A stretch of 43,148 nucleotides of DNA from Steroidobacteraceae bacterium (lineage in GTDB: Bacteria; Pseudomonadota; Gammaproteobacteria; Steroidobacterales; Steroidobacteraceae), in contig JAFMKA010000009.1 in NCBI GenBank assembly GCA_017853175.1, forward strand, positions 1 through 43,148. Reading direction: 5' to 3'. The notes beneath the pieces are model-generated. The model did no database searches and was not told the DNA's origin. It was given only the letters and a program-made list of their open reading frames with translations. Both the position numbers and the translations under genes were made by a program. Each line of letters begins with the position of its first letter. Position 1 is the first letter of the stretch. Below are positions 4,468-29,269 of this stretch, one piece after another.

Positions 4468-5235
4468 ATGTCGAGTCTGCCGCGCCGCATCGATGCCTGC
4501 CTCGTTGCCGGGGGCAAGTACCACGATATCGACCACGCGCGGCTGCAGCTGCTGACTCTGCTCGGTGAGCATCCGAACATTCGGTGTCGGGTGCTTGAAG
4601 ACTATCGCGACATCGATGCGATCGTGGCAGCCGACGTGCTCATTACGTACACGGTCGACGTGGTGCCGGATGAAGCCGGTGCCGCACGACTGCACGACTG
4701 GGTGGGCGCGGGGCATCGTTGGTTGGCGTTGCACGGGACCAACTCGATACTTCGCTGGTCAAAAACTCACAAAGCCTGGGAAGCGCCTCGTACGGTCCCG
4801 ACGCTGATGCAAACGCTGGGGAGTCAATTTTTGGCGCATCCGCCGATTGCCCCCTACCGCGTCGAGATCACGGCGCCCGAGCACCCTCTCGTTCGGGGCA
4901 TCGAACCTTTCGATGCGGATGACGAGTTGTACCTCAGCGAGTTGCACGGTCCGATCGAGGTCTTGTTGCATACACGCTGGTCCGGACGAACGTCTTTGTT
5001 CGTCGATAGCGACTGGACTCAAGACGAGCCGCGCCCCGTGTTGTATCTCAAGCGAACCGGCGCGGGAGAAGTGCTTTATTTCACGCTCGGGCACTCGCGC
5101 GGGCACTACGACATGCGTCCGATCATGGACGAGTACCCGACGATCGAACGAGGCAGCTGGAACACACCGGCCTTCGTGGAAATTTTAAGACGCGGCATAC
5201 GCTGGGTCGCGACCGCCGAACGGATTTCATCATGA
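4468..5235 (+). CDS. ThuA-like domain protein
   Basis: A 255-residue protein of the ThuA family, a class I glutamine-amidotransferase-like fold found near sugar and other catabolic genes. The pattern runs DIDAIVAADVLITYTVD, then LHDWVGAGHRWLALHGTN, and a C-terminal GAGEVLYFTLGHSRGHYD, which matches the family's arrangement of strands and conserved Gly/His residues. No amidotransferase Cys nucleophile is evident. Its stop overlaps the start of Rieske oxygenase 1 by four bases (ATGA), so the two are translationally coupled. ThuA proteins have been linked to 3-keto-sugar metabolism, so a glycosidic or carbohydrate-like substrate is one possibility, but this is only a hint. Confidence 0.8.
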   Translation: MSSLPRRIDACLVAGGKYHDIDHARLQLLTLLGEHPNIRCRVLEDYRDIDAIVAADVLITYTVDVVPDEAGAARLHDWVGAGHRWLALHGTNSILRWSKTHKAWEAPRTVPTLMQTLGSQFLAHPPIAPYRVEITAPEHPLVRGIEPFDADDELYLSELHGPIEVLLHTRWSGRTSLFVDSDWTQDEPRPVLYLKRTGAGEVLYFTLGHSRGHYDMRPIMDEYPTIERGSWNTPAFVEILRRGIRWVATAERISS

Positions 5236-6629
5236 GCAAGAAGCCGACACCCACCCTCACCGAATCCGAGCAAGCTGAACTGCGAGAGCGCTCACGCACT
5301 CCGACCTATCGCAAAGTTCGACGTGTCGAACCGACGGATGGCCCCGGAACTCCGAGCGCGAAAGCCCCGGACCCGGACCTCGGCGACGCCATGATTCCGA
5401 AAGAGCGCTACACCTCACGAGGCTTCCTGCAACTCGAGTGGGATCGGATGTGGAGCAAGGTTTGGCTGCTCGGCGGATTGGAGTCGGACGTTCCCGAACC
5501 CGGCGATTACATCTGTACCGAAATCGGTCGCGAATCGATTTTGCTCGTAAGGCAGGCCGACGGCCGGATGCGCGCGTTTTACAACGTGTGTCTGCACCGA
5601 GGTAACCGTCTCCGACCGACGGGAATTTCGAGCGCTGACTCGTTCAAGTGCCAATATCACCATTGGGAATACGGCATCGACGGACGTTTCGTTCGCATCC
5701 CGGATCTCGATACCTTTCCGCAAGGTGCCCCACCGTGCCGCGGCCTCAAAGAATTGCCCTGCGACACTTGGGGTGGATTCGTGTGGTTCAGCCTGAACCG
5801 AGAGGTTGGTCCGCTCGCTGAGTATCTCTCACCGATTCCGCAGCACCTCGACCCGTACCATTTTCCGCGTATGGCTCTCACCCGTGACATCACGGTCGAG
5901 TGGAACTGCAACTGGAAGGCTTCCGTCGACGCCTTCAACGAGAGTTATCACGTTCAGGGCATCCACCCTCAGTTGCTCTATTACCTGCACGATCTCGACA
6001 TCCAGATCGACTGCTACGAGCGCCACAATCGATATCTCATACCCTTCGGTACCGTGAGCCCGCGCGTACGCAAGCCACCGTCGATTCCCGATCCGATAAA
6101 GACCATCATGAAGACCGCGGGAATGGACCCGGCGGACTACGACGAACCGCTCGAGAATCTCCGTCGCGACGTCCAAGTACACAAGCGGCGTACCGGCGCT
6201 TCGATGGGCCGCGATTACTCGAAGCTCAACGACGATCAGCTGACCGACGATTATCACTACCTGATCTTTCCGAACGTGACGCTCAACGTGCACGCGGACG
6301 ATCTCATGCTGTTCCGCCAACGCCCGCATCCGACCGACCCCGATCGCATGCTGTATGACGTGTGGACGTTCGAGCTGGTCCCCGAGGGGGCCGAGCGCCC
6401 GCCCCGCCCGAAGCATCAGTACTTCCGTCACGGCGATAAATCGATCGGCCTTGTCCTCGATCAGGATGCCCAGAACCTCCCTGGAGTTCAGGACGGTATG
6501 CACTCGGCCGGACTTGACGGGCTGTGGATCGGTTCGCAGGAATTGCGAATTCGCCACTTCCACAAGGTGCTGATGGACTACCTCGGCAAGGATGCGGACG
6601 AGGCAGCGGCGAAGCTGGACAGCCGCTGA
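5232..6629 (+). CDS. Rieske non-heme iron oxygenase, alpha subunit (no. 1)
   Basis: A 465-residue oxygenase. The Rieske cluster ligands are C120-x-H122 and C140-x2-H143. The second motif reads CQYHHW instead of the usual CxxHGW, so a Gly next to the ligand is replaced by His. The mononuclear iron site is seen in FNESYHVQGIH with H240 and H245 and a carboxylate near D410/D412. Glu237 takes the place of the Asp that bridges the two metal centres in naphthalene dioxygenase, as in several other Rieske clades. A basic and proline-rich N-terminal extension of about 50 residues precedes the domain. The start overlaps the ThuA stop. It probably hydroxylates or demethylates a hydrophobic substrate in the cytoplasm, using electrons from a ferredoxin such as the one at 788. 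Confidence 0.93.
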   Translation: MSKKPTPTLTESEQAELRERSRTPTYRKVRRVEPTDGPGTPSAKAPDPDLGDAMIPKERYTSRGFLQLEWDRMWSKVWLLGGLESDVPEPGDYICTEIGRESILLVRQADGRMRAFYNVCLHRGNRLRPTGISSADSFKCQYHHWEYGIDGRFVRIPDLDTFPQGAPPCRGLKELPCDTWGGFVWFSLNREVGPLAEYLSPIPQHLDPYHFPRMALTRDITVEWNCNWKASVDAFNESYHVQGIHPQLLYYLHDLDIQIDCYERHNRYLIPFGTVSPRVRKPPSIPDPIKTIMKTAGMDPADYDEPLENLRRDVQVHKRRTGASMGRDYSKLNDDQLTDDYHYLIFPNVTLNVHADDLMLFRQRPHPTDPDRMLYDVWTFELVPEGAERPPRPKHQYFRHGDKSIGLVLDQDAQNLPGVQDGMHSAGLDGLWIGSQELRIRHFHKVLMDYLGKDADEAAAKLDSR

Positions 6630-6740: not shown

Positions 6741-7709
6741 GTGAGCCTTCCCAAAGACCTGTTGCTGCGCGCCTATCGGCAGATGAAGACGATCCGCGAG
6801 TTCGAGGAGCGTCTACACGTCGAAATACAAACCGGCGAGATACCGGGTTTCACACACCTCTACTCTGGGCAGGAAGCCGTCGCCGTCGGCGTCTGCGAAA
6901 ACCTCTCGGATCAGGACTGGATCGCGAGCACTCACCGTGGTCACGGGCACTGCATCGCCAAGGGCTGCGACGTCCAAGGCATGATGCTCGAGATCTACGG
7001 GCGTCGTGACGGCCTCTGCAAAGGCAAAGGCGGCTCGATGCACATCGCCGACATGACGAAGGGCATGCTCGGCGCAAACGCGATCGTGGGCGGCGGACCG
7101 CCGATCGCCGTGGGTGCAGGCATCGCGTGCAAGATCGCCAAGCGCGGCAACGTCGCCGTGGCATTCGGCGGCGACGGGAGTGCCAACCAAGGCACCGTAT
7201 TCGAGGCGATGAATCTCGCCGTCGTGCTTCGTGCACCCGTCATCTTTGTTTTCGAGAACAACGGCTACTCCGAGCACACGGGCGCCTCGTACGCCGTGGG
7301 TTCGGGCGACATCGCGGGCCGCGCGCGCGGCTTCGGCATGGCCGCTGAAACCTGCGATGGCTCAGATTTCTTTGCCGTGTACGACACGATGGCGAAGTTG
7401 TTGAAATCTGTCAGAACAGGCGGCGGCCCTGCGGCGCTCGAGGCCAAAACCACGCGCTTCTTCGGGCATTTTGAAGGCGATCCGATGCTCTATCGGGCCA
7501 AAGACGAAGTCGCTCGTCATCGAGAGCAGATGGATTGTCTGCGCATCTTCCGCGATCGCGTGAGCAAAGAGGGCTGGCTGCAGCTCGCCGAGCTCGACGC
7601 CATCGATGACCAAGTGATGGCACTGATCGACAAGTCGGTGACGACGTCGCGCGCGGCAACGCCGCCGTCTGCCTCCGACTTGCTCACCGACGTGTACGTC
7701 TCCTACTGA
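6741..7709 (+). CDS. Thiamine-diphosphate dehydrogenase E1 alpha subunit (acetoin/pyruvate dehydrogenase type)
   Basis: A 322-residue E1 alpha subunit. The thiamine-diphosphate motif is complete, from GDG (144-146) to NN (173-174) in FVFENNGYSEHT, and the THRGHGH segment (64-70) holds the active-site histidines of this family. The start is GTG at 6741 with AGGAG at 6731-6735. With the next gene (E1 beta) it forms the decarboxylating or C-C cleaving component that passes an acyl group to lipoate on the E2. Length and sequence style resemble acetoin dehydrogenase AcoA as well as pyruvate/branched-chain E1. In this setting the substrate may be a pathway 2-oxo acid or alpha-hydroxyketone rather than pyruvate. 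Confidence 0.9.
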   Translation: MSLPKDLLLRAYRQMKTIREFEERLHVEIQTGEIPGFTHLYSGQEAVAVGVCENLSDQDWIASTHRGHGHCIAKGCDVQGMMLEIYGRRDGLCKGKGGSMHIADMTKGMLGANAIVGGGPPIAVGAGIACKIAKRGNVAVAFGGDGSANQGTVFEAMNLAVVLRAPVIFVFENNGYSEHTGASYAVGSGDIAGRARGFGMAAETCDGSDFFAVYDTMAKLLKSVRTGGGPAALEAKTTRFFGHFEGDPMLYRAKDEVARHREQMDCLRIFRDRVSKEGWLQLAELDAIDDQVMALIDKSVTTSRAATPPSASDLLTDVYVSY

Positions 7710-7732
7710 CCCGCCCTTCAGAGAATAGATTC

Positions 7733-8758
7733 ATGCGACAAATTTCGATGAGAGACGCCATCAACGAGGCCTTGCACCTCGAGATGGCGCGAGATCCGCG
7801 GGTGATCGTACTCGGCGAAGATGTCTCGGGTGGCGCGGGCGGCACCTCAGGCCAACGCGACGCCGCAGGCGGCGTTTTCGGTGTCACCAAAGGCTTGCTG
7901 CCGAAGTTCGGTGAAGATCGGGTGATCGATACCCCCATCTCGGAGTCGGCGATCATTGGAGCAGCAAACGGCGCCGCGCTCGCCGGTCTGCGTCCGGTGG
8001 CCGAGCTCATGTTCGCAGACTTTCTGGGCGTGTGCTTCGACCAAGTGTTCAACCAAGCGGCAAAGTTTCGCTACATGTTCGGTGGCAAGACGTCTTGCCC
8101 CATCGTCATTCGAGCGGCCACGGGCGCAGGCATGAACATGGGCGCTCAGCACAGCCAGTCGATGTACGCCATGGTGACCGGCGTGCCGGGTCTCAAAGTG
8201 GTCGTACCGTCGAACGCCTACGATGCCAAAGGCCTCATGCTGACGGCTATCCGTGACGATGACCCGGTGATTTTCTTTGAGCACAAGGCGCTCTACCCGA
8301 GAAAGTCCGCGGTTCCCGAGGGCGACTACACCCTTCCGTTCGGCGAAGCGAACCTCGTCCGCGAAGGCGAACACGTCACGGTGGTTGCGATCGGACGCAT
8401 GGTGTCGTTTGCGGAAAAGGCGCTCGATGCACTGGCTGCCGACGGTATCACCGCCGATCTGCTCGATCCGCGCACGCTCTCGCCGCTCGATGACGAAACC
8501 ATCTACGAGAGTCTCGATAACACCGGGCACCTCGTCATCATCGACGAATCACCACCGCGCTGTTCGGTTGCAGCAGATATTGCCGGTCTCGTGGCGAGCA
8601 ACGCCTTCCATTCACTGAAGGCGCCCATCGTCCAACTGACTCCGCCGCACACGCCCGTACCCTTCGCTCGAGAACTCGAGCGTGCGTACGTTCCGGGACC
8701 GCAAGCCATCGAGGCAGCGATCCGAAAAATGCTCAAAGAATCTCGGGCAGCGAGCTGA
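7733..8758 (+). CDS. Thiamine-diphosphate dehydrogenase E1 beta subunit (acetoin/pyruvate dehydrogenase type)
   Basis: A 341-residue transketolase-like E1 beta subunit. It has the typical N-terminus MRQISMRDAINEALHLEM, the conserved Glu in VIVLGEDVSGG, the DTPISE segment, ATGAGMNMGAQHSQS and the C-terminal domain with DLLDPRTLSPLDDETI. It pairs with the E1 alpha encoded 23 bases upstream to form the alpha2beta2 tetramer, and ends two bases before the E2 gene. No gene for lipoamide dehydrogenase (E3) follows, so the complex would borrow the housekeeping E3. Confidence 0.92.
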   Translation: MRQISMRDAINEALHLEMARDPRVIVLGEDVSGGAGGTSGQRDAAGGVFGVTKGLLPKFGEDRVIDTPISESAIIGAANGAALAGLRPVAELMFADFLGVCFDQVFNQAAKFRYMFGGKTSCPIVIRAATGAGMNMGAQHSQSMYAMVTGVPGLKVVVPSNAYDAKGLMLTAIRDDDPVIFFEHKALYPRKSAVPEGDYTLPFGEANLVREGEHVTVVAIGRMVSFAEKALDALAADGITADLLDPRTLSPLDDETIYESLDNTGHLVIIDESPPRCSVAADIAGLVASNAFHSLKAPIVQLTPPHTPVPFARELERAYVPGPQAIEAAIRKMLKESRAAS

Positions 8759-8760
8759 CC

Positions 8761-9960
8761 ATGTCACGAATCCACGCGATTACGATGCCCAAATGGGGCA
8801 TCGAGATGCAGGAAGGCGCTATCACCTCCTGGCATGTCGATGTCGGTGGGATAGTCTCCCGAGGGGCGCAGCTTCTCGATGTCGAGACGGAGAAAATCGT
8901 CAATACCGTAGAGGCTAGCGTCGAAGGAACGCTGCGCCGAATCATCGGCTCGGTCGGCGACACGCTCCCGGTAGGCGCTCTCGTTGGAATCGTCTGCGAA
9001 GGCGACGTATCTGATGCCGAGATCGATCGTTTCGTTCGCGAATTCAAGGCCGCCGACGCCTCGTTCGAACCGGAGACGAGCGCCGGCGCGTCGTCCAGCG
9101 CAACGGCACCGGCCGCAGAGGCGCCTTCAGCGGCTCCCGCAGCGGAGCGCGAGGATGAAGCTCGAGTCAGCCCGATCGCCAGACGCCTCGCCGAGAAACT
9201 CGGCGTGGACCTCTCGAAGGTGACGGGCACGGGCCGCAACGGTCGTATCTCGAAAGAAGACGTCGAGTCCTATCACGCGAAGCAATCTACGGCTGTCGAG
9301 GCCGTACCCATGAGCGCCATGCGACTCGCGATCGCGCGACGACTCACGGAATCGAAGCAAACGATTCCGCACTACCGTTTGCATGCCGATGTCGATTGCG
9401 CAGCACTCGACACCGCGCGCGGTCAGCACACGGCGGCGGGCCGCAAGATCTCGGTCAACGATCTACTGCTCGTTGCGCTCGCTCGTACGCTCGCCGAGTT
9501 CCCGGACGTCAATGCCTGCCTCGAAAACGACACCATATTGCGGCGGCGCAGCGCGGATATCGCGCTGGCCGTGTCGACCGCAGGCGGGCTCATCACACCG
9601 GTGCTGCGCAGCGCCGAGAGCAAGGATGTCGTCGCCCTCGCCCAAGAAGCTCGCGACCTCGCCGCCAAGGCCCGCGACAACAAGCTGACCCGAGAGGAAA
9701 TCACCGGCGGCAGCTTCACGCTATCCAACCTCGGCATGTTCGGTATCGATGCCTTCGATGCCGTCATCAATCCGCCGCAGGTGGCCATCTTGGCGGTCGG
9801 CAGCATTCGTGATGCCGTCGTACTGCGTGACGGAACGCCGGCGGCGGGCCGACTCATGACTCTCACGCTGTCCTGCGACCATCGCGTCGTCGACGGCGCA
9901 CTCGGAGCACGTTTTCTTTCTGCACTCAAGCAACGTATCGAAGGGGGGAACTTCGCATGA
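8761..9960 (+). CDS. Dihydrolipoamide acyltransferase (E2)
   Basis: A 399-residue E2 with three parts. A single N-terminal lipoyl domain carries the lipoylated Lys45 (ETEKI). An Ala/Pro-rich linker is followed by a peripheral-subunit-binding domain (about 131-170, SPIARRLAEKLGVDL...GRNGRISKEDV). The C-terminal acyltransferase domain has catalytic His374 and Asp378 in DHRVVDGALG. It accepts the acyl group made by the E1 encoded just upstream and transfers it to CoA. The start lies two bases after the E1 beta stop. Its TGA overlaps the ATG of the PQQ dehydrogenase (ATGA), so translation of the two is coupled, an unusual partnership. Confidence 0.93.
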   Translation: MSRIHAITMPKWGIEMQEGAITSWHVDVGGIVSRGAQLLDVETEKIVNTVEASVEGTLRRIIGSVGDTLPVGALVGIVCEGDVSDAEIDRFVREFKAADASFEPETSAGASSSATAPAAEAPSAAPAAEREDEARVSPIARRLAEKLGVDLSKVTGTGRNGRISKEDVESYHAKQSTAVEAVPMSAMRLAIARRLTESKQTIPHYRLHADVDCAALDTARGQHTAAGRKISVNDLLLVALARTLAEFPDVNACLENDTILRRRSADIALAVSTAGGLITPVLRSAESKDVVALAQEARDLAAKARDNKLTREEITGGSFTLSNLGMFGIDAFDAVINPPQVAILAVGSIRDAVVLRDGTPAAGRLMTLTLSCDHRVVDGALGARFLSALKQRIEGGNFA

Positions 9961-20186: not shown

Positions 20187-21100
20187 GCGCGGGTGATGCG
20201 GTAACCGAGTCGAGGAAAATGTGTGACGAGCTCACCCACCTCAGCAGTACGACGCCGAACGGCCACCTCGCTGATCGTCAAGGTGACGAGTTCACCCTCG
20301 ACCGGAATTTTGCCGTAGTCGTCGGGCGTGACGCAGACCCGCTCGCCGGTCGCGAACCCGAGAGGGTCTTTCGGATCGACGCCCACGGGCTCGATCGGTG
20401 TCGAGGTTCTCGCAATCGCAAGCGCCTCGTCCGCCCTGATCTCGCTACGCTCCCCTCGAGAGCAGGCGGCCATTCGAGATTCCCACTCGCGCAGCCGCGC
20501 GAACGGTTCGAGCAACTCGGCGGCATTGCCGATATTCCCGCGTGCCATCCACACCGGGAAATACGCATCGATATCGGCATAAGAAATCTGCGACCCCAAA
20601 ATGAACGGTCGACCGTCGGCGAGCATCAACTCCACGAGCTCGAGCCCCGCACGAAATTGCGTGTAGAGATGCGGAATGTCGCTCTCTAGCGCATCGAAGT
20701 CCATGAAATTGAAAAACGACTTTCGATCGTCGATCACGGCTTTGGGAATGAAGGCCTGATTGAGCCCCATCGACAAGCCCGCCCCGGGATCAAAAAAACT
20801 GCGATCACTCCAGGGCGTCAACGCGAGAGACAACCCGAGCGACCCCTGCGGAAAAAGACTCGGCTCCGGGAAACGTCGCTCGAGCTCTCGGACGATCAGC
20901 CGCGTGTCGCAATACACGTCGGCCCCGATCTGCAGGACGGGGATCTTTCGGTAGCCGCCAGTCAGAATGCCGAGCTCCGGGCGCGGCATCACCATCGAGA
21001 CCTGGACAGACCGCCACGCCAAGCCCTTCAGACCGAGCGCGAGACGGATTTTCTCCCCGAAAGGCGACGGATCGTGGTGATGGAGGATGGGGATGTTCAC
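20183..21100 (-). CDS. Glutathione S-transferase-like protein with extra C-terminal domain (copy 2)
   Basis: A paralogue of the protein encoded at 18550. It has the GST N-terminal domain (HHHDPSPFGEKIRLALGLKG; GGYRKIPVLQIGADVYCDT), a helical domain and a C-terminal extension with FATGERVCVTPDDYGKIPVEG and HFPRLGYRI. The frame opens at a TTG ending at 21142, but a GTG ending at 21100 gives the N-terminus NIPILHHHDPSPF expected for a GST, so 305 residues are proposed. The upstream TTGACT is better read as a possible -35 element on the minus strand. First gene of the three-gene GST operon, divergent from Rieske oxygenase 2. Confidence 0.8.
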   Translation of the reverse strand: MNIPILHHHDPSPFGEKIRLALGLKGLAWRSVQVSMVMPRPELGILTGGYRKIPVLQIGADVYCDTRLIVRELERRFPEPSLFPQGSLGLSLALTPWSDRSFFDPGAGLSMGLNQAFIPKAVIDDRKSFFNFMDFDALESDIPHLYTQFRAGLELVELMLADGRPFILGSQISYADIDAYFPVWMARGNIGNAAELLEPFARLREWESRMAACSRGERSEIRADEALAIARTSTPIEPVGVDPKDPLGFATGERVCVTPDDYGKIPVEGELVTLTISEVAVRRRTAEVGELVTHFPRLGYRITRA

Positions 21101-21147
21101 GGCTCGGAACTCTACACCGAGGCCGTCTAAAAAAACAGTCAAGCCTG

Positions 21148-21176
21148 TTTATTTCAGACTGGGTCGGTCGTATACT
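21148..21176 (+). promoter_or_regulatory. Candidate promoter for the 21225-26617 operon
   Basis: A good -10 hexamer TATACT (21171-21176) lies 17 bases after a weak -35 TTTATT (21148-21153), upstream of Rieske oxygenase 2. A CAGTC/GACTG inverted pair (21136-21140 and 21157-21161) flanks the -35 region and may bind a regulator. The region is shared with the divergent GST operon. Confidence 0.3.
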
Positions 21177-21224
21177 CGCCGGCCAATAAAACGTCTTTTT
21201 CCGATGATTTTCGCTGGTGACCCC

Positions 21225-22436
21225 ATGGATGCTGCAACAGTCGACTACCTGAAAGCCGGTATGAAAGCCGAGTCGGAGCGCACGGCACCTCCCCCGGGCT
21301 TCCCCCAACTGCCGCTCATCCCGGGCGCTCGGTACACCGACCCGGCTTTTCTGGAGCTCGAACAGCGCTACCTCTGGCAGCGTTCCTGGCTCTTCGCCTG
21401 CCATGCGGACGAGATCCCCGAACCGGGTAGTTTCTACCTCTTCAAGCGAACGGGCTCACCGATCATCGTCGTCCGCGACAAGAACGGCGAAGTTCGAGCG
21501 TTCTACAACTCGTGTCGGCACCGTGGCGCACCCCTCGTTCGCGAGTGCAAGGGAAAGGTCGACGGCCTCGTCTGCGGGTATCACGGCTGGACCTACGGGC
21601 TCGATGGTCGACTGATGAACCTGCGCGACAAGCGCGACTTCGTCGATCTCGATCTCAGTCAATATCCGCTGCACTCAGTGCGTTGCGAGTCCCTCGGCAA
21701 CTGGATCTTCGTCAATGAGGATCCGCAGGCCGAGCCGTTGCTCAAACATCTCGGCCCGATTCCGCAGCAACTTGAGGAAATCCAGCCCGGACAAGTTCGC
21801 TTCGTGCACCGCAAGTCGTATCCGGTGAAGTGCAACGTCAAAGTGTTGCTCGATGCGTTTCTCGAGGTGTATCACCTGAAGTCGATTCACCAGAATACGG
21901 TCGACCGCTTCCTCGATCATCGAGGTACGTTCATCACGCTCTGGAAAAACGGCCATTCCCTGATGTGCACACCGAACCGCCGTCCGGACTGGCAAGACCC
22001 CGGTACGCGCGGCATGCGCCGCATCGAGACCGCCTCCGAAATCACCTCGAAGAATAATCCGTCGTTCAATCTCTATCCGAATCTGGTGACGCCGGTGGAT
22101 GCGACCGGTAACCCGTTCATCTTGTTCTGGCCGACCGGTCCGCGCTCGATGGAAATCGAAATCGTCTGGTTCGCGCCCGATTGGGGTAGCGGCGAGATCG
22201 ATCCACTGTGGCAGACGCGCTTGTCCAACTTCGAGCGCATCCTCGAAGAAGATACGCAGTTCGCCGAGCAAATCCAGGAGTCGGTGGAATCTGGCGCGTT
22301 CAAGGGCATCACGCTCAACTATCAGGAGCGACGCATCTATCACTGGCACGAGGAACTCGATCGCCGCATCGGCGCCGAGCGCGTTCCTGAAGCGCTGCGC
22401 GTTCGACCCGTGCTCAAAGATTGGGTCGCGGGCTGA
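21225..22436 (+). CDS. Rieske non-heme iron oxygenase, alpha subunit (no. 2)
   Basis: A 403-residue oxygenase. Cluster ligands are C97-x-H99 (NSCRHRGAPL) and C117-x2-H120 (CGYHGWTY). The catalytic iron site is in FLEVYHLKSIH with H217 and H222, a third ligand near D343 (ILEEDTQFAEQIQ), and Glu214 at the bridging position. This layout is that of the large choline-monooxygenase/phthalate-like group. The ATG at 21225 follows a GGTGA four bases upstream; the open frame begins at 21087, but that extension is not family-like. It leads a five-gene operon with an HMGCS/DUF35 fusion two bases downstream. The substrate may be a hydrophobic compound later carried as a CoA ester. Confidence 0.93.
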   Translation: MDAATVDYLKAGMKAESERTAPPPGFPQLPLIPGARYTDPAFLELEQRYLWQRSWLFACHADEIPEPGSFYLFKRTGSPIIVVRDKNGEVRAFYNSCRHRGAPLVRECKGKVDGLVCGYHGWTYGLDGRLMNLRDKRDFVDLDLSQYPLHSVRCESLGNWIFVNEDPQAEPLLKHLGPIPQQLEEIQPGQVRFVHRKSYPVKCNVKVLLDAFLEVYHLKSIHQNTVDRFLDHRGTFITLWKNGHSLMCTPNRRPDWQDPGTRGMRRIETASEITSKNNPSFNLYPNLVTPVDATGNPFILFWPTGPRSMEIEIVWFAPDWGSGEIDPLWQTRLSNFERILEEDTQFAEQIQESVESGAFKGITLNYQERRIYHWHEELDRRIGAERVPEALRVRPVLKDWVAG

Positions 22437-22438
22437 CG

Positions 22439-23893
22439 ATGAGCGGCATCCAGTCATGGGGCGTCTGCATCCCTCGTCTGCGCCTGTCGCGCAAGACGAT
22501 CGGTGCCGCCATGGGCTGGGTGAACCCTTCTCTGAAGACCGCGCGTGGCGAGCGTTCGATCTGTAATTGGGACGAAGACTCGCTGACGATGGCGGTCGAG
22601 GCTGCGCGCTGCGCGCTGCCGAGTCGCGCGGCTCGGGACTCGGTCAGCACCGTCATGCTCGCCTCCACCACGCTGCCCTTCGCCGACCGCAGCAACTCGA
22701 CGGTGCTCGCAAGTGCCTTGAGTCTCGATGACTCGGCGCTGACACTCGATGTCACAGGGTCACAGCGCTCGGCTACGGCGGCGCTCGCGCAAGCACTCAG
22801 TTCCTCGGGTCGCGGCCACACACTCGTCGCCGCAGCCGACCGACGTCTGGCACGTCCCGGCAGCGATCAGGAGTCTTCCTACGGTCACGGTGGCGCCGCG
22901 ATCGTCGTGGGTGCAGACGAAGGGGTTGCCGAGCTCATCGCGCAGCATCACCGTGCCGCCGATTTTGTCGACCATCATCGTTTGACCGACTCACCGTTCG
23001 ACTACTCGCTCGAGGAACGCTGGGTTCGCGAAGCCGGCTGGCAGACGCTCGTGCCCGACACCTTGCAGGCGCTGCTGACTAACGCGCAGATCGCGTCCAA
23101 AGATATCGCTCATCTCGTCATCGATGCGCCCCCTGCCTTAGCCCGCAAGATCGCCTCGCTCGCCGGAATCAGCGAGAACGCACTCGTCGATAATCTCGCG
23201 GCTCAATGCGGTCAAACCGGTGTCGGTCACCCGCTCTTGATGCTCGCGAGCGCGCTCGAACGCGCCAAAGCGGGTGAACTAGTGCTTCTCGTCGGCTTCG
23301 GCCAAGGCGTCGATGCCCTGCTCTTTCGCGCAACGGCGAAAATCGGCTCGCACAAACCTTCGCGCAGTGTCGTCGAAGCGCTGGGCGATCGCCGCGAAGA
23401 AACCGAATACACCCGATTTCTCTCGCACTGCGGGTTGCTGCCCGTCGAGTTCGGCATGCGTGCGGAGCGCGATAGCCGAACGGCACAAACGGTGGCTTGG
23501 CGACGCCACGAAGACATCTATGCGTTCACCGGCGGCCGCTGCACCCAGTGCGGCACCGTCCAGTTTCCGCGCGCCCGGGTCTGCGTCGCGCCGGCCTGCC
23601 GACAAGCCGGAGAACAAGAGCCCATACCCCTCGCCGAGAAGACGGCTCGCATCAAGACCTTTACCGAAGACTGGCTGGCATTCAGTCCCCGCCCGCCGCT
23701 CGTCTACGGCAACGTGGCATTCGCCGTAGGGGGCAACGCCTTCATCGAGTTCGCCGATTTCGCTCCGAGCGAAGCCAAGGTAAACGATGAAGTCAGATTC
23801 GTTTTTCGTCTCAAAGATATCGACCGGACCCGCGGATTCCGCCGCTACTTCTGGAAGGCTGCACCGATGAACTCGGCAGCGGTCGGGAGCTGA
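22439..23893 (+). CDS. HMG-CoA synthase-like domain fused to DUF35 OB-fold/zinc-ribbon domain
   Basis: A 484-residue fusion. Residues 1 to about 330 follow the archaeal-type HMG-CoA synthase pattern (GIQSWGVCIPRLRL; LASTTLPFADRSNSTVLASAL; AAADRRLARPGS; GHGGAAIVVGAD). Residues from about 355 form a DUF35 module with a zinc ribbon (C368, C371, C382, C387) and an OB-fold. Compared by eye with archaeal HMGCS motifs, the catalytic Glu, Cys and His positions hold Thr77, Gln109 and Asp229, so condensation by the usual mechanism is unlikely. The thiolase starts three bases after the stop. In archaea, thiolase, HMGCS and DUF35 form one complex with a shared CoA channel; here two of those are one chain. 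Role inferred: scaffold, CoA-ester channel or altered chemistry. Confidence 0.85.
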   Translation: MSGIQSWGVCIPRLRLSRKTIGAAMGWVNPSLKTARGERSICNWDEDSLTMAVEAARCALPSRAARDSVSTVMLASTTLPFADRSNSTVLASALSLDDSALTLDVTGSQRSATAALAQALSSSGRGHTLVAAADRRLARPGSDQESSYGHGGAAIVVGADEGVAELIAQHHRAADFVDHHRLTDSPFDYSLEERWVREAGWQTLVPDTLQALLTNAQIASKDIAHLVIDAPPALARKIASLAGISENALVDNLAAQCGQTGVGHPLLMLASALERAKAGELVLLVGFGQGVDALLFRATAKIGSHKPSRSVVEALGDRREETEYTRFLSHCGLLPVEFGMRAERDSRTAQTVAWRRHEDIYAFTGGRCTQCGTVQFPRARVCVAPACRQAGEQEPIPLAEKTARIKTFTEDWLAFSPRPPLVYGNVAFAVGGNAFIEFADFAPSEAKVNDEVRFVFRLKDIDRTRGFRRYFWKAAPMNSAAVGS

Positions 23894-23896
23894 TCG

Positions 23897-25099
23897 ATGG
23901 CGAGTGGTATCCGCGACAAAGTCGTGATTCTCGGCATGGGTTGCGCGCGCTTCGGCGAGCGTTGGGACTGCGGTCCCGACGATCTGATGCTCGAGGCCTT
24001 CGAGGAAGCCACGCGTGATGCCGGCATTGAGAGAGATCAACTCGAAGCAGCTTGGCTAGGCGTTTTTTACGATGAGCAGAGCGTTTCGAAATCGGCGCTG
24101 TCGCTCGCCATGACGCTACGCTTGCCGCAGATTCCGGTCTCTCGAGTCGAAAATCTTTGTGCGACTGGCACTGAGGCACTCCGTGGCGCCGCGTACGCCG
24201 TCGCCTCGGGCGCCTGTGACATCGCGCTCGCTATGGGCGTTGAAAAACTCAAAGATACGGGCTTCGGAGGTCTTCCCGAACGCACCAAGGGCACGTTCGA
24301 AGATCTTTGGCAGCCCGGATTCACGCCGCCCGGGGCGTTTGCCCAGCTCGGCGCTGCGTACGCCGCAAAGCACGGTATCGCGATCGACGAACTTCGTCGC
24401 GCCATGGCACACGTATCGGTGAAGAGCCATGCCAACGCACTGCATGCACCGAAGGCTCACCTGCGCAAGGCGATCACGTCCGATCAAGTGTTGTCGGCGC
24501 CGATGATCGCCTACCCTCTTGGTGTGCTCGACTGCTGCGGCGTATCGGACGGCGCAGCCTGCGCCATCGTCACCACACCCGAGATGGCGAAATCCCTCGG
24601 ACGTCGGGATGCCGTCGCCATCAAGGCCATGCAGCTCGTCGCATCGAACGGGTATGAACTCTCACACGCCGATTGGGACGGCGCGCACACGCCCACCACT
24701 CGCCGCGCTGCAACGCGAGCGTACGCGGAAGCGGGCGTGAAAGACCCGAGCCGCGAGGTTTCACTGATGGAAGTGCACGACTGCTTCTCCATCACCGAGC
24801 TCGTGCTCATGGAGGACCTCGGCTTCTCGGCCGAGGGGCGTGCCCCGACGGATATTCTCGACGGTCGCTACGATCGCGACGGTCGCAATCCTTGTCAGAC
24901 GGACGGTGGTCTGAAGTGCTTCGGACACCCCGTCGGCGCTTCGGGACTGCGTATGGTCTACGAGGTCTACAACCAGTTGCTCGGTCGCGCAGGCGAGCGG
25001 CAACTGCCCTCACCCAGTCTCGGCCTCACCCATAACTTGGGTGGCATTCCCAACCGCAACATCGCCAGCGTCTCGCTGTTCGGTCTGAAGACGCTCTGA
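23897..25099 (+). CDS. Thiolase, SCP2/archaeal type
   Basis: A 400-residue thiolase. The nucleophile is Cys88 (ENLCATGTEAL). The second motif is HDCF (His294, Cys296) as in SCP2-thiolases and archaeal acetoacetyl-CoA thiolases, and the third is GHPVGASG with His344. All catalytic residues of that subgroup are therefore present. Enzymes of this class cleave 3-ketoacyl-CoA (or condense acetyl-CoA) and need a DUF35 partner in archaea. The upstream fusion supplies a DUF35 domain and an HMGCS-like domain, with only three bases between the genes, so a stable complex is likely. In steroid degraders related thiolase-fold proteins with DUF35 act as aldolases, but those lack the thiolase cysteines kept here. 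Confidence 0.93.
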   Translation: MASGIRDKVVILGMGCARFGERWDCGPDDLMLEAFEEATRDAGIERDQLEAAWLGVFYDEQSVSKSALSLAMTLRLPQIPVSRVENLCATGTEALRGAAYAVASGACDIALAMGVEKLKDTGFGGLPERTKGTFEDLWQPGFTPPGAFAQLGAAYAAKHGIAIDELRRAMAHVSVKSHANALHAPKAHLRKAITSDQVLSAPMIAYPLGVLDCCGVSDGAACAIVTTPEMAKSLGRRDAVAIKAMQLVASNGYELSHADWDGAHTPTTRRAATRAYAEAGVKDPSREVSLMEVHDCFSITELVLMEDLGFSAEGRAPTDILDGRYDRDGRNPCQTDGGLKCFGHPVGASGLRMVYEVYNQLLGRAGERQLPSPSLGLTHNLGGIPNRNIASVSLFGLKTL

Positions 25100-25118: not shown

Positions 25119-26021
25119 ATGTCAGCCACGACCCCTCTCATCAATTCCAAAGAAAAGTCTCCCGTGCGTTGGGGCTTCACGGACGAGGAGCTCGCACAGC
25201 GTCCTCACGCCTATCGAGACGATCTACTCGCAGGTAAGGTCTGTCTCGTCTCAGGGGGTGGCAGCGGTCTCGGTCGCGCCATGGCCTTCTTGTTCGCGAG
25301 ACTCGGCGCCGAAGTCGTGATTTGCGGTCGTCGAGAGGATCGTCTCCTCGATGCCGCAGACAGCATTCGTCGTCTTCTCGGTCGCGAAGTCGGAACTCGC
25401 GCCATGACCATCCGAGATCCCGATCAGGTTCAATCGTTGATCGACCACACCTGGTCTCGTTATGGCGGTCTCGATCTGGTGGTCAATAACGGTGGTGGTC
25501 AGTTCCCACAGGCCGCGCTCGATTACTCAGTAAAAGGGTGGAACGCGGTCATCGACACCAACCTGAACGGGACTTGGTGGATGATGCAATCGGCGGCGCG
25601 CGCCTGGCGCGACCGTAACCGTCAAGGATCGATCGTCAACATCGTTGCCAACGTGTGGCGCGGCATGCCGCAAGTGGCGCATACCTGTGCGGCTCGCGCA
25701 GGCGTCATTTATCTCAGCAAATCGGTAGCCGTCGAATGGGCGCCGCTCGGCATTCGCGTGAACTGCGTCTCGCCGGGCTCCATCGCCACCGAAGGCCTCA
25801 ATGTCTACAAACCCGAAGCGGCTTCAAAGTTCGGAAATGCCAATCCGCTGCGCCAGTTCGGCGATGCGTTCGATATCGCCCAAGCCGTCGTGCATGTCGG
25901 CTCGCCCGTGACGGGCAAGTTCATCACCGGCGAAACTCTGGTGGTGGACGGCGGTAATCAGATGTGGGGCGACGTCTGGCCGGGTACCATTCCGGAGTGG
26001 TTCAAGGTTCCTGATCGCTGA
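25119..26021 (+). CDS. SDR of the trans-2-enoyl-CoA reductase (PECR-like) group
   Basis: A 300-residue SDR with a long N-terminus (about 38 residues before the Rossmann fold). The cofactor motif is SGGGSGLG (45-52) with CGRRED for NADPH, and NNGGG (123-127) takes the place of NNAG. The normal Tyr-x3-Lys is absent: the positions read Thr189 and Arg193 in HTCAARAGVIYLSKS. Peroxisomal trans-2-enoyl-CoA reductase has the same AARAGV arrangement, so this is a subgroup feature, not damage. Likely reaction: NADPH-dependent reduction of a 2-enoyl- or dienoyl-CoA. The gene follows the thiolase by 19 bases, which fits a CoA-ester pathway. Confidence 0.87.
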   Translation: MSATTPLINSKEKSPVRWGFTDEELAQRPHAYRDDLLAGKVCLVSGGGSGLGRAMAFLFARLGAEVVICGRREDRLLDAADSIRRLLGREVGTRAMTIRDPDQVQSLIDHTWSRYGGLDLVVNNGGGQFPQAALDYSVKGWNAVIDTNLNGTWWMMQSAARAWRDRNRQGSIVNIVANVWRGMPQVAHTCAARAGVIYLSKSVAVEWAPLGIRVNCVSPGSIATEGLNVYKPEAASKFGNANPLRQFGDAFDIAQAVVHVGSPVTGKFITGETLVVDGGNQMWGDVWPGTIPEWFKVPDR

Positions 26022-26041: not shown

Positions 26042-26617
26042 ATGACTCAGACCCTCTTTTCTCGCACACCGCGAGCGTCGTTACCCGAGGGCATTGCCCC
26101 CGCGTGGGACTTGCTCAATCGGCTGACGGGTGAGCCCACCTTCATCGAAGTGTTTGCTCAAGCCCCTCACCTGCTGAACCTCGTGATGAACGAGTTCTAT
26201 GGGAAGGTGTTCTTCGGTGGCCAAGTTCCGCAGCGGTACAAGCAGCTCGCACGACTTCGCCTATCGCTCATACACGGCTGCCGTACCTGCAACAAACAAA
26301 ACGTGCCGGGCGCGCTCGAAGCGGGCTTCACCCAAGAGCAAATCGATGCGCTCGTCGCGAACACGCCGAGCCAACCCGTATTCTCTGAAGCGGATCTCGC
26401 CGTCATCGAGTACACCGATCAGATGGTCCTCACGAACATGCACGGAGAAATTTCGCCGCAGCTCTTCAAAACTTTGCGCGCACATTTCTCCGAGGCTCAG
26501 ATCCTCGAGCTCGGTGTCGTGATGGCGATCATCGGAGGCATGGCTAAGCTTTCCTTCCTACTCGAGGTCGTCGAGAAGGAAGCGTGGTGCCCCTTCACGC
26601 CGGAAACATCCAGCTAA
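26042..26617 (+). CDS. Carboxymuconolactone decarboxylase / AhpD-like protein
   Basis: A 191-residue all-helical protein of the AhpD-like superfamily. The core RLRLSLIHGCRTCNKQNV holds Cys80-x2-Cys83. AhpD has His four residues after the second Cys to relay protons in peroxidase chemistry; here Asn87 is found, so peroxidase activity may be altered. Typical members are alkylhydroperoxidase-like reductases or lactone decarboxylases. It is the last gene of the five-gene operon, and a strong intrinsic terminator follows. It might detoxify peroxides released by uncoupled Rieske turnover, or act on a pathway lactone; sequence does not decide. Confidence 0.83.
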   Translation: MTQTLFSRTPRASLPEGIAPAWDLLNRLTGEPTFIEVFAQAPHLLNLVMNEFYGKVFFGGQVPQRYKQLARLRLSLIHGCRTCNKQNVPGALEAGFTQEQIDALVANTPSQPVFSEADLAVIEYTDQMVLTNMHGEISPQLFKTLRAHFSEAQILELGVVMAIIGGMAKLSFLLEVVEKEAWCPFTPETSS

Positions 26618-26713: not shown

Positions 26714-29269
26714 TTATTTACCGCTCGATCCGAGGTTGAAGCCCACCTCGATACCGTAGCTGCGCGGCGCACCCCACTGGGTGTGCGTCCACAACGTCGC
26801 GACCGACTGCGAGGCGACGCGATAACGCTCATCCGAGAGGTTCTTGCCGTACACGCGGACGAAGTAGCGATTGTCGGACGGCGTGTAGGTCGCCGACATG
26901 TTGAGCAGCGTCTTCTCATTGAGGTACGCGTCGTACTCACGACCCGCAGCAGAGATGTAGAAGAGGTTCTTGGCCTCGTAGTACACCTCGCCCGTCACCT
27001 CGAGACTGCCCTGGGCGAAGTCCGTGGTGTACGTACCCGAGATCGCACCGCTCTCCTTGGGCGAGCGCGGTACCGGCAGACCCGAGAAGTTGCCATTAAA
27101 GGCGACGATCGAGCCACCGCTCACCGAGTCATTGATGCCCGGCTGGTTGATCACGAACTTGTCGTACTTGGCATCGAGGAACGCCGCCTGCCCGCGGATA
27201 CGGAACGAGTCCGTGATCAGCGCTTGCAGTTCGAGCTCGATACCCTGCGACTTCACTTCGGCCGCGTTGTAGAACACGGTTTCCTGGAAGTCCGCGCCGC
27301 CCTTACGAGTGATGATGTTCACTGCGCGCTGAGCGTCCTCGTACTTCGTCGTGAACACCGTCGGGTTGAAGCGCAGGCGACCATCGGCCGACTCGAACTT
27401 CAGACCGAACTCGTAGTTCGTTGCGTACTCCGGATCGACAGGGCGCGTCAGCGAGGGAACCATCAAACCGCTGGTGCCGGTCTGATCGTTGTAACCACCC
27501 GCCTTGTACCCACGGGATACCGTGAGGTAGCTGAAAAGCGAGTCGTTCCACTGGTACGAACCCGTCAAACGCCAGCTCGGCTCCGACCACTTGCGGGCCA
27601 GGTTGCTGAAGCCCGGAGTCTTCGAGTTGACGATCTGACCGCCCGGGTACTTGGTGAAGTCACCCGCGTTGAGCGGCTCGCCGAGCTGCGCCGGGGTCAA
27701 CCCCGGATTCTTCGGATCGAGAGAGGCCAGACCCACCTGGGTACGGCCCGCCCACTCACGCTCGTCCTGCGTGTAGCGGAAGCCCGCGCCCAGCGTGAGC
27801 TTCTCCGACGCCTTGTAGGTCAAGTCGGCATAGCCCGCCAGAGAGTCGGAGTCCTGCTGGTTGCAGAGCACCTGCGGCGTGTTGTTGTTGAACTGGGCCG
27901 GAAGACCGAGCGCAGCGAACGGCAGCGCGAGATCGATGAATCCCAGAACTTGGACCACGCAGAAGCGCGCATCGTTCGTCTGCTGGAAGGCACCGACGAC
28001 GTAGTTGATCGGGCCGTCGTTATTCGAGGCGATGCGTACTTCGAGCTGGCTCGTCTCACGATCCGTGTCGCGCGTGGCGTCGAACAGCGAGATGGGCTGC
28101 TTGGTGATGGAGTTCACCGGCGCGGCACCCGTATAGGTGTTCGGCAGATGTTCCTTCTGATCGCGCGTACCGTAAGACGCGAAGAGCGTGTGCGAACCGA
28201 GCTCCCACTCCGCGTTCAGGTATACGCCGTCGACGTCGATACGCTGACCCTTGTCCATCTCAAGCAGCGAATCATTACGCTGCGTGGAGGCCATGTTGTC
28301 GAGCGGGTCGCCGGTCGGGCGCGTGAAGCCGAGGAAGTTCCAGAGGTACGGTCCGTTCGGCGGCGTATCGTTGAACGACGGCACCGCATCGGAGCGATCA
28401 CGCATCTTTTCGATCTGCAGCAGCAGCGTGAGGTTGTCCGAGGCGTTCCACTGAGCCTTGATGCGGCCGTTGACGACGTCGTCACCGCCGGTCGTCGCGC
28501 CCGTGCCCGAACCACGCTGACCCGTGACACCCGGAATCGTGAACGGCGCAAACGTGCCACCGAAGATGTTCAGGGTGTTGATCGGTCCGTAGGTCGCGCC
28601 GAGCTTGTAGTAACCGTCAGACTTCGAAACCGAACCGACGAGACGCAGGGCGAACACGTCCTGCTGCAGCGGCAGATCGACTGCCGCCTGCAGGCGCTTG
28701 GCACCGAAGCTGCCGTAGCCGAGACGGATGTCCGCGCCGAACTCCGACATGTTCGGACGCTTCGTGCGGATATTGACCGCACCGCCCGTCGTGTTTTTGC
28801 CGAACAGCGTGCCCTGAGGACCGCGCAGCACTTCTGCACCAGCGATGTCGAAGGTGTCGAGCAGCTGCGTCTGGACGCTCGGCATGACGAAATCGTCGAC
28901 CTGTACGCCCACCGGCGAGTCCTGGTAAACGATGATGTCAGTGAGACCGACACCGCGCATCGCGAACGAGGCCGCATTGAAGGCCGTGATGCGTGCCGCC
29001 GAGAACCCGGGTACCGCAGAGGCGAGGCCGGAAATATCTTTGGCGACCAAACGATCGATATCTGCCGAGGTGACGGCGGACACCGAAATCGGAGTCGTCT
29101 GCAAGTTGGTTTCCGTTGCACCGCGCTGAGCAGTAACGGTGATTTCTTCGAGGCGGGTCTCGTCTCCCGTCTGCTGTGCTTGTGCAGCCGCGATGGTCAT
29201 CGCCATCGCGCTAGCGACCAATACCGACCGAACTGCCACAGTCACGGATCGTCCCTGTGATTTGAGCAT
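26714..29269 (-). CDS. TonB-dependent outer-membrane receptor
   Basis: An 851-residue receptor. A signal peptide (about 1-31, SVLVASAMAMTIAAAQAQ) precedes a TonB box-like LEEITVTAQR, then the plug domain (SAVTSADIDRLVAKDISGLA; VLRGPQGTLFGKNTTGGAVNI) and a 22-strand barrel. The plug motif GPQGTLFGKNTTGGAVN is that of the large sphingomonad/marine receptor group used for hydrophobic or complex organic nutrients as well as iron chelates. The chain ends in FNLGSSGK rather than a terminal aromatic residue. It is divergent from Rieske oxygenase 3 and faces the terminator at 26646. Likely role: TonB/ExbB-driven uptake of the pathway substrate across the outer membrane. Confidence 0.95.
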   Translation of the reverse strand: MLKSQGRSVTVAVRSVLVASAMAMTIAAAQAQQTGDETRLEEITVTAQRGATETNLQTTPISVSAVTSADIDRLVAKDISGLASAVPGFSAARITAFNAASFAMRGVGLTDIIVYQDSPVGVQVDDFVMPSVQTQLLDTFDIAGAEVLRGPQGTLFGKNTTGGAVNIRTKRPNMSEFGADIRLGYGSFGAKRLQAAVDLPLQQDVFALRLVGSVSKSDGYYKLGATYGPINTLNIFGGTFAPFTIPGVTGQRGSGTGATTGGDDVVNGRIKAQWNASDNLTLLLQIEKMRDRSDAVPSFNDTPPNGPYLWNFLGFTRPTGDPLDNMASTQRNDSLLEMDKGQRIDVDGVYLNAEWELGSHTLFASYGTRDQKEHLPNTYTGAAPVNSITKQPISLFDATRDTDRETSQLEVRIASNNDGPINYVVGAFQQTNDARFCVVQVLGFIDLALPFAALGLPAQFNNNTPQVLCNQQDSDSLAGYADLTYKASEKLTLGAGFRYTQDEREWAGRTQVGLASLDPKNPGLTPAQLGEPLNAGDFTKYPGGQIVNSKTPGFSNLARKWSEPSWRLTGSYQWNDSLFSYLTVSRGYKAGGYNDQTGTSGLMVPSLTRPVDPEYATNYEFGLKFESADGRLRFNPTVFTTKYEDAQRAVNIITRKGGADFQETVFYNAAEVKSQGIELELQALITDSFRIRGQAAFLDAKYDKFVINQPGINDSVSGGSIVAFNGNFSGLPVPRSPKESGAISGTYTTDFAQGSLEVTGEVYYEAKNLFYISAAGREYDAYLNEKTLLNMSATYTPSDNRYFVRVYGKNLSDERYRVASQSVATLWTHTQWGAPRSYGIEVGFNLGSSGK

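Follow-up and report, generated by a model that had tools for sequence, protein, structure and literature searches.

A catalytically dead HMG-CoA synthase homologue fused to a DUF35 module as the probable partner of a catabolic thiolase

Introduction

The locus considered here raises the question of what a homologue of HMG-CoA synthase (HMGCS) does in a catabolic-looking gene cluster once the catalytic residues of that enzyme are gone. It lies in a window of 43,148 nt (the whole stretch of DNA that was analysed, contig JAFMKA010000009.1 of a Steroidobacteraceae bacterium), in which one gene joins an HMGCS-like half to a DUF35 half and is followed by a thiolase gene. The original prediction proposed that the protein has lost its Glu-Cys-His triad, that it unites two subunits of the archaeal thiolase/HMGCS/DUF35 complex in one chain, and that it may be a CoA-ester channel or scaffold, a decarboxylase of KSQ type or something new. 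In the archaeal complex, DUF35 joins the thiolase to HMGCS and CoA lies at the meeting point of all three, according to two papers (PMC12329534, PMC6392133).

Architecture and fold of the fusion protein

The gene and its parts are the following:

22439..23893, + strand: pseudo-HMGCS/DUF35 fusion gene (484 aa plus stop codon, single open frame)
22439..23443, + strand: HMGCS-like half (approximately residues 1-335; matched to 6ESQ_I and PhlA by the profile)
23495..23872, + strand: DUF35 half, residues 353-478, made up of a zinc ribbon and an OB fold (PF12172, 6ESQ_E)
23540..23599, + strand: zinc-ribbon Cys4 (C368, C371, C382, C387; at least four Cys here in 62 of 70 fusions)

The start codon of the fusion agrees with those of its homologues and the open frame 22439-23893 is genuine. 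An assembly artefact was considered as the source of the fusion and ruled out, as the same architecture is found in 41 genome-contig loci and in annotated plasmid records. The protein has the HMGCS/KAS-III fold and falls in the HMGCS branch of the thiolase superfamily: PF08541 (Pfam) scores above its cut-off, and the best Foldseek matches of an AlphaFold2 model of the whole fusion (pLDDT 83.8, pTM 0.86; 33 aligned sequences, alignment A1 consisting of 33 of 42 fusions) are PhlA-type chains (9SKH, 5MG5), archaeal HMGCS (6ET9, 6ESQ) and MucABC (9VBO, 9VBT), with E values of 5.0e-22 to 9SKH_C and 2.2e-21 to 6ET9_I. Sequence searches of the PDB with the HMGCS half retrieve the same kinds of proteins (DAPG protein 9SKH, MucABC 9VBO, PhlA 5M3K and 6ESQ_I). 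The curated NCBIfam cut-offs for the HMG-CoA synthase enzyme are reached neither for PRK04262 (E 2.6e-45, 154.9 bits, under the 244-bit cut-off) nor for TIGR00748 (92.9 bits, under 353.35).

The predicted fusion to DUF35 was borne out by a Pfam match of PF12172 above its cut-off (26.5 bits vs 23.2) and by a match of residues 353-476 to the DUF35 subunit 6ESQ_E (phmmer 3.5e-6; 2.3e-12 with the family profile). The four cysteines that define the zinc ribbon of the DUF35/ChsH2 module are all present in the window protein. A Pfam scan at E 0.01 found no OB family in the fusion; the OB fold is recognized from the match of the whole module to 6ESQ_E and from beta strands that the model shows from 394 to 476. 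Seven of the 70 aligned fusions (L047, L048, L049, L051, L052, L091 and L086) are without three or four of the zinc cysteines, the remainder of these proteins being kept; most or all of the zinc cysteines are likewise gone in L112, which stands outside the 70, so that the ribbon appears dispensable in some fusions. Six of the zinc-less fusions form a single clade in the tree and L086 stands apart from it, so that the zinc site has probably disappeared two or more times.

Loss of the catalytic triad

Profile alignment with 6ESQ_I places the three catalytic columns on the following codons of the window gene:

22667..22669, + strand: Thr77, at the position of the general-base Glu (Glu82 in 6ESQ); Thr in 67 of 70 fusions
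22763..22765, + strand: Gln109, at the position of the nucleophile Cys (Cys114 in 6ESQ); Gln in 56 of the 70, Cys in none
23123..23125, + strand: Asp229, at the position of the active-site His; Pro in 53 of the 70, Asp in two, His in one

The Glu is set at Thr77 by SESHPY against STTLPF, the Cys at Gln109 by the stretch FACKAGT against SQRAAT and the His at residue 229 by FHQ; Cys114 and Glu82 are the 6ESQ residues named in the paper on PhlACB (PMC6392133). The three substitutions that had been aligned by eye were thus confirmed. The counts come from 70 aligned fusions, which include near-duplicates and a few truncated sequences (L028, L037) and from which L001, L046, L073 and L074 had been excluded as repeats of the window, L002 and L003 (identical scores). 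To this alignment were added 22 controls, namely 21 FabH/HMGCS-like open reading frames from the loci found in the genome search and the window's own FabH.

Among the 70 fusions, none has Glu at position 77 and a single one (L086) has His at position 229; L112 combines His at 229 with Thr77 and Arg109. The residues that replace Gln at position 109 (Leu 4, Arg 4, Ala 2, and one each of Thr, Ser, Pro and a gap) lie on scattered branches, and Asp229 is confined to the close relatives of the window. The expectation that Thr, Gln and Asp would be conserved in the family holds for Thr and mostly for Gln; it fails for Asp. A slip of the alignment was examined as a cause of the missing triad, over two residues on either side of each column, and rejected: no Glu occurs within two residues of position 77, the only His within two residues of column 229 is that of L086, in the column itself, and four Cys occur near position 109 (L025, L048, L077, L086), none in the column. 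Cys and His occupy these same columns in 21 of the 22 controls, including the window's own FabH, and the Glu column is also filled in three of them (L054-L056). No fusion with an intact triad occurs among the 70, nor is L105 or L112 one. The fusion counts, set against the controls, indicate that the loss of the triad is real and family-wide, and by its residues the fusion is not an HMG-CoA synthase enzyme. Other positions are strongly conserved in the 70 fusions (Arg110 in 62, Glu145 in 68, Glu192 in 69 and Arg194 in all).

The one exception among the controls, L053 (L106:6646-7593), is a 315-aa unfused HMGCS-like protein without the Glu, Cys and His, whose gene adjoins a thiolase gene; a profile search of the 13 kb around it found no DUF35 part. 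This type is possibly the pre-fusion state of the family. When 398 genomes were scored with the archaeal-type HMGCS model (best four or five candidates per genome), none passed its cut-off. The best 13 matches comprise ten fusion-bearing genomes and, interspersed among them, three with unfused HMGCS-like genes (G204, G027, G304).

The adjacent thiolase and its co-occurrence with the fusion

The gene that follows the fusion is:

23897..25099, + strand: SCP2-type thiolase (NF004810/PRK06157), beginning 3 nt past the fusion stop codon; Cys88, His294, Cys296, His344

It scores 646.5 bits against NF004810 (cut-off 403) and has the nucleophile Cys, the HDCF motif and the GHP motif of SCP2-type thiolases. 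Cys88, His294, Cys296 and His344 are present in 64 of 64 aligned thiolases, a thiolase row being absent for six of the 70 fusions (L035, L037, L047, L049, L079, L088). The archaeal subunit 6ESQ_A is its second-best PDB match (1.6e-48), behind 7YVY, and BbsB (7PXP) is matched as well. The proposed link to the archaeal complex is thereby sustained, the 6ESQ subunits being matched by the two halves of the fusion and by the thiolase.

The fusion is followed by the thiolase in 40 of 41 genome-contig loci, with gaps of -8 to 362 nt (median 27); in the remaining one (L037), the contig ends within the fusion. Among 398 genomes of the phylum, the fusion (at least 400 bits over most of the model) and the NF004810 thiolase (E up to 1e-90) occur in the identical ten genomes, from ten genera, and among 40 relatives they again occur in an identical set of ten. 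Taken together (the window's genome is common to both sets), both genes are found in 19 of 437 genomes, neither in 418 and one alone in none (Fisher test, p about 1e-33, with related and hence non-independent genomes). In the 400-genome searches, scoring covered the four or five top first-look candidates of each genome. The two genes are on separate contigs in G147, and also in G285, where a contig break apparently falls between them. The L105 pair and the unfused L053 with its thiolase fall below these score limits.

The pair of L105 (L105:3978-5207 with 4916-6364) consists of a shortened, divergent fusion of 409 aa and a thiolase 35% identical to that of the window, in a genome of the same genus which also carries a standard pair. 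On the Paraburkholderia PGU19 plasmid, the thiolase beside the fusion (L088:9325-10649) is divided into two open segments that share a frame and is missing from the gene table; the gene may be broken, or the sequence may contain an error.

Selection was estimated against L002 and L003 only, since more distant members of the genus are near synonymous saturation. The dN/dS of the fusion is 0.098 (L002) and 0.091 (L003), and the thiolase gene has values of 0.031 and 0.037. Taken separately, the HMGCS half of the fusion gives 0.12 and 0.12 and the DUF35 half 0.07 and 0.03. The fusion gene is under purifying selection and every part of it is constrained, the HMGCS half least.

Gene neighbourhood and distribution

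The annotated neighbours of the pair in the window are:

21087..22436, + strand: Rieske ring-hydroxylating oxygenase, directly upstream of the fusion (start codon uncertain; family scan)
25119..26021, + strand: SDR oxidoreductase, downstream (family scans and synteny)
26042..26617, + strand: carboxymuconolactone-decarboxylase-family protein (CMD), downstream (family scan and synteny)
26714..29269, - strand: large protein, TonB-dependent receptor by eye (synteny; an annotated TonB-dependent receptor lies at a like place in L087)

Family scans cover eight genes of the window and all other names were given by eye. The order in the window is acyl-CoA dehydrogenase, CoA-transferase, GST-like protein, Rieske oxygenase, fusion, thiolase, SDR, CMD and TonB-like protein (several by eye), with AMP-ligase-like and VOC-like genes near the cluster (names partly by eye). 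This order is retained, with gaps, in L002, L003 and L107-L110 and partly on a Niveispirillum plasmid. The Rieske gene, which is likely in the fusion's operon, stays beside the fusion in L002, L003, L108, L109 and L110 and on the Niveispirillum plasmid.

Acyl-CoA dehydrogenases, MaoC hydratases, SDRs and CoA-transferases recur as neighbours across the loci. In the 41 genome-contig loci, where many contigs end early and all counts are lower bounds, a 565-aa acyl-CoA dehydrogenase occurs in at least 24, MaoC in at least 21, CaiB and the upstream-type acyl-CoA dehydrogenase in at least 20 each and SDR in at least 12. In the marine loci, the pair is accompanied instead by acyl-CoA dehydrogenases, by a hydratase of the MaoC/MFE-2-like type and by a CaiB protein related to 2-methylfumaryl-CoA isomerase (577 bits, under the 725 cut-off). 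The 565-aa dehydrogenase (L025:8679-10376, with homologues in 24 of the 41 loci) has an N-terminal extension of about 165 aa and lies near the CaiB protein; with this extension, it presumably resembles methylsuccinyl-CoA dehydrogenase. The two genes together give a hint that the marine loci handle branched dicarboxyl-CoA compounds. Elsewhere in the window (6741-9960), E1-alpha, E1-beta and E2 genes of a 2-oxoacid dehydrogenase were named by eye, relatives of which lie near the fusion in L036 and L042.

Relatives of the fusion are found in Gammaproteobacteria, Alphaproteobacteria and one MAG titled Chloroflexi (L027), and plasmid-borne ones in Alphaproteobacteria, Betaproteobacteria, Rhodococcus and Streptomyces. 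One of the latter group, a 467-aa fusion 30.4% identical to the window protein, is encoded between SDR and acetyl-CoA acetyltransferase (thiolase) genes on a plasmid of Novosphingobium sp. ES2-1 (L082), a strain which we take to degrade estrogens. Its cluster has P450, VOC and indolepyruvate oxidoreductase genes, gene types that are also named, with a thiolase and an 'HMG-CoA synthase' (EGO55_13555), for the edc estrogen cluster of Novosphingobium/Caenibius tardaugens (PMC7793797); the likeness of the two clusters is drawn from these gene types. The authors of the edc study could not place EGO55_13555 and did not think that it carries out a condensation (PMC7793797). The 2-oxoacid dehydrogenase genes of the window could be the counterpart of the indolepyruvate oxidoreductase of the estrogen cluster.

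Comparison with known systems

The closest precedent is PpATase of Pseudomonas protegens (PhlACB; PDB 5M3K/5MG5; DAPG protein 9SKH), which shares with the window pair an HMGCS-like part without Cys and Glu, a DUF35 module and an active, Cys-bearing thiolase-like subunit. PhlA is described as an HMGCS-like subunit lacking the Cys and Glu (PMC6392133) and is termed an 'inactive member' (PMC2954200); the residues of PhlC alone react, yet activity needs the entire operon (PMC6392133). The window fusion resembles PhlA in having lost Cys and Glu and in being encoded with a DUF35 module and a Cys-bearing thiolase. However, PhlA and PhlB are separate chains, in a complex that acetylates phloroglucinols, whereas HMGCS and DUF35 form one chain in the window and, unlike PhlACB, the window pair belongs to clusters of catabolic appearance and has a thiolase of SCP2 type with the HDCF motif.

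The archaeal acetoacetyl-CoA thiolase/HMGCS/DUF35 complex (PDB 6ESQ) is matched by the fusion and the thiolase in all three of its subunits, but its HMGCS retains the catalytic residues and its DUF35 is a separate chain. In the MucABC acyltransferase (PDB 9VBO/9VBT), described as acting in tetramate acetylation (PMC10161427), one chain resembles the HMGCS half both in its sequence and in its fold and has Glu in the Cys column (printed alignment); this chain of 359 aa covers the HMGCS half only. BbsAB, ChsH2-Ltp2 and Shy-Sal likewise associate a DUF35 module with an SCP2-like thiolase or aldolase in catabolism, and their descriptions, in the accessible part of the source, mention no HMGCS-like part, unlike the window (PMC12329534).

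Dead HMGCS subunits (PhlA) are therefore already in print, as are DUF35 fusions to members of the thiolase superfamily, which the available text of a 2010 paper mentions (PMC2954200). The suggestion that the protein is something new stands only in part: a search of the open-access PMC literature found no paper describing a fused, thiolase-linked, catabolic pseudo-HMGCS/DUF35 family.

Proposed role and alternative explanations

The fusion matches two subunits of one archaeal complex and the thiolase matches the third; most simply, the pair would be the same arrangement encoded by two genes and used for thiolysis. The catalytically dead HMGCS homologue fused to DUF35 is probably an obligate non-catalytic partner of the downstream catabolic thiolase, by analogy with the systems compared above, and among the three roles initially envisaged, that of a scaffold or CoA channel appears the best supported. 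The following model can be drawn. By analogy with the archaeal complex and with PhlA, PhlB and PhlC, the zinc-ribbon/OB half would tie a dimer of the pseudo-HMGCS to a dimer of the thiolase. A model of fusion and thiolase as one chain was poor, with a pLDDT of 73.4 and a pTM of 0.58. The dead HMGCS half would then complete the acyl-CoA site or shape a cavity beside the thiolase pocket. The sharing of CoA in this scheme is drawn from the archaeal complex only, since PhlACB is described as lacking the CoA-binding residues (PMC6392133). The thiolase, with Cys88, His294/Cys296 and His344, would perform all the chemistry, and its substrate may be a 3-ketoacyl-CoA, branched or derived from a ring, that is cleaved by thiolysis in a catabolism resembling beta-oxidation. 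It is conceivable, if unlikely, that the old HMGCS site has ceased to react and instead holds the substrate (a CoA ester of steroid, terpenoid or aromatic origin) by its bulky tail while the thiolase cuts, which would make the pair a widespread class of catabolic thiolase and would explain the edc 'HMG-CoA synthase'.

Other roles for the HMGCS half have to be weighed against that of a non-catalytic partner. The pocket might have been rebuilt as a new active site, around Thr77, Arg110, Glu145 or the EERW motif, for a second step such as hydrolysis or isomerisation of the thiolase product. The near-invariance of these and neighbouring residues (R194, E192, E145, T77 and R110, in the numbers given above) would fit such a site, but the DED motif and Glu145 are common to PhlA and 6ESQ_I in the printed alignments and may serve the fold, the dimer or CoA binding, and neither the DUF35 half nor the thiolase evolves as fast as the HMGCS half; a rebuilt site is judged quite unlikely. 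That same fast evolution, together with the shortened divergent form in L105, would be expected if the HMGCS half were an unused relic carried along by a useful DUF35 half. A relic or pseudogene is nevertheless spoken against by a dN/dS that is still about 0.12, by the many near-invariant columns and by the retention of this half across Proteobacteria and Actinomycetota, and it is judged highly improbable.

Decarboxylation of a malonyl-type CoA ester, the second of the roles initially proposed, is suggested by Gln in the Cys column of the window protein and most other fusions, and a C112Q structure of FabH (9ka5, as named in its title) is among the Foldseek matches. KSQ-type decarboxylases are, however, defined by Gln in place of Cys with the catalytic His kept, and both KSQ and FabH-type decarboxylation require this His (FabH also an Asn). 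In the fusions, the His column is mostly Pro, and His survives only in L086 among the 70, and in L112 outside them; the FabH Asn column (259) holds V, E or D in 51 of the 70 and Asn in two (L083, L085), and none of the 70 has both His and Asn. Moreover, the two proteins that keep the His have Arg, not Gln, at position 109, and Gln is replaced in 14 of the 70. A KSQ-like decarboxylase was accordingly set aside as very unlikely indeed. The pair could also run towards synthesis and transfer acyl groups as PhlACB and MucABC do, PhlA-type chains and MucABC being, besides archaeal HMGCS, its nearest folds. The clusters point elsewhere: they hold beta-oxidation, Rieske and uptake genes, and no polyketide or NRPS gene is annotated near the pair at the twelve plasmid loci or was noted at the other loci read, so that a synthetic role seems distinctly improbable.

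Conclusions

These genes appear in public records as 'hydroxymethylglutaryl-CoA synthase', '3-oxoacyl-ACP synthase III C-terminal domain' or 'OB-fold domain-containing' protein. The first of these names implies a condensation that would be senseless in degradation, in line with the remark in the available text of the edc study (PMC7793797). If the fusion is the non-catalytic partner of the thiolase, this would extend PhlA-type pseudoenzymes from antibiotic synthesis into catabolism and would make the role of the edc-type homologue testable.
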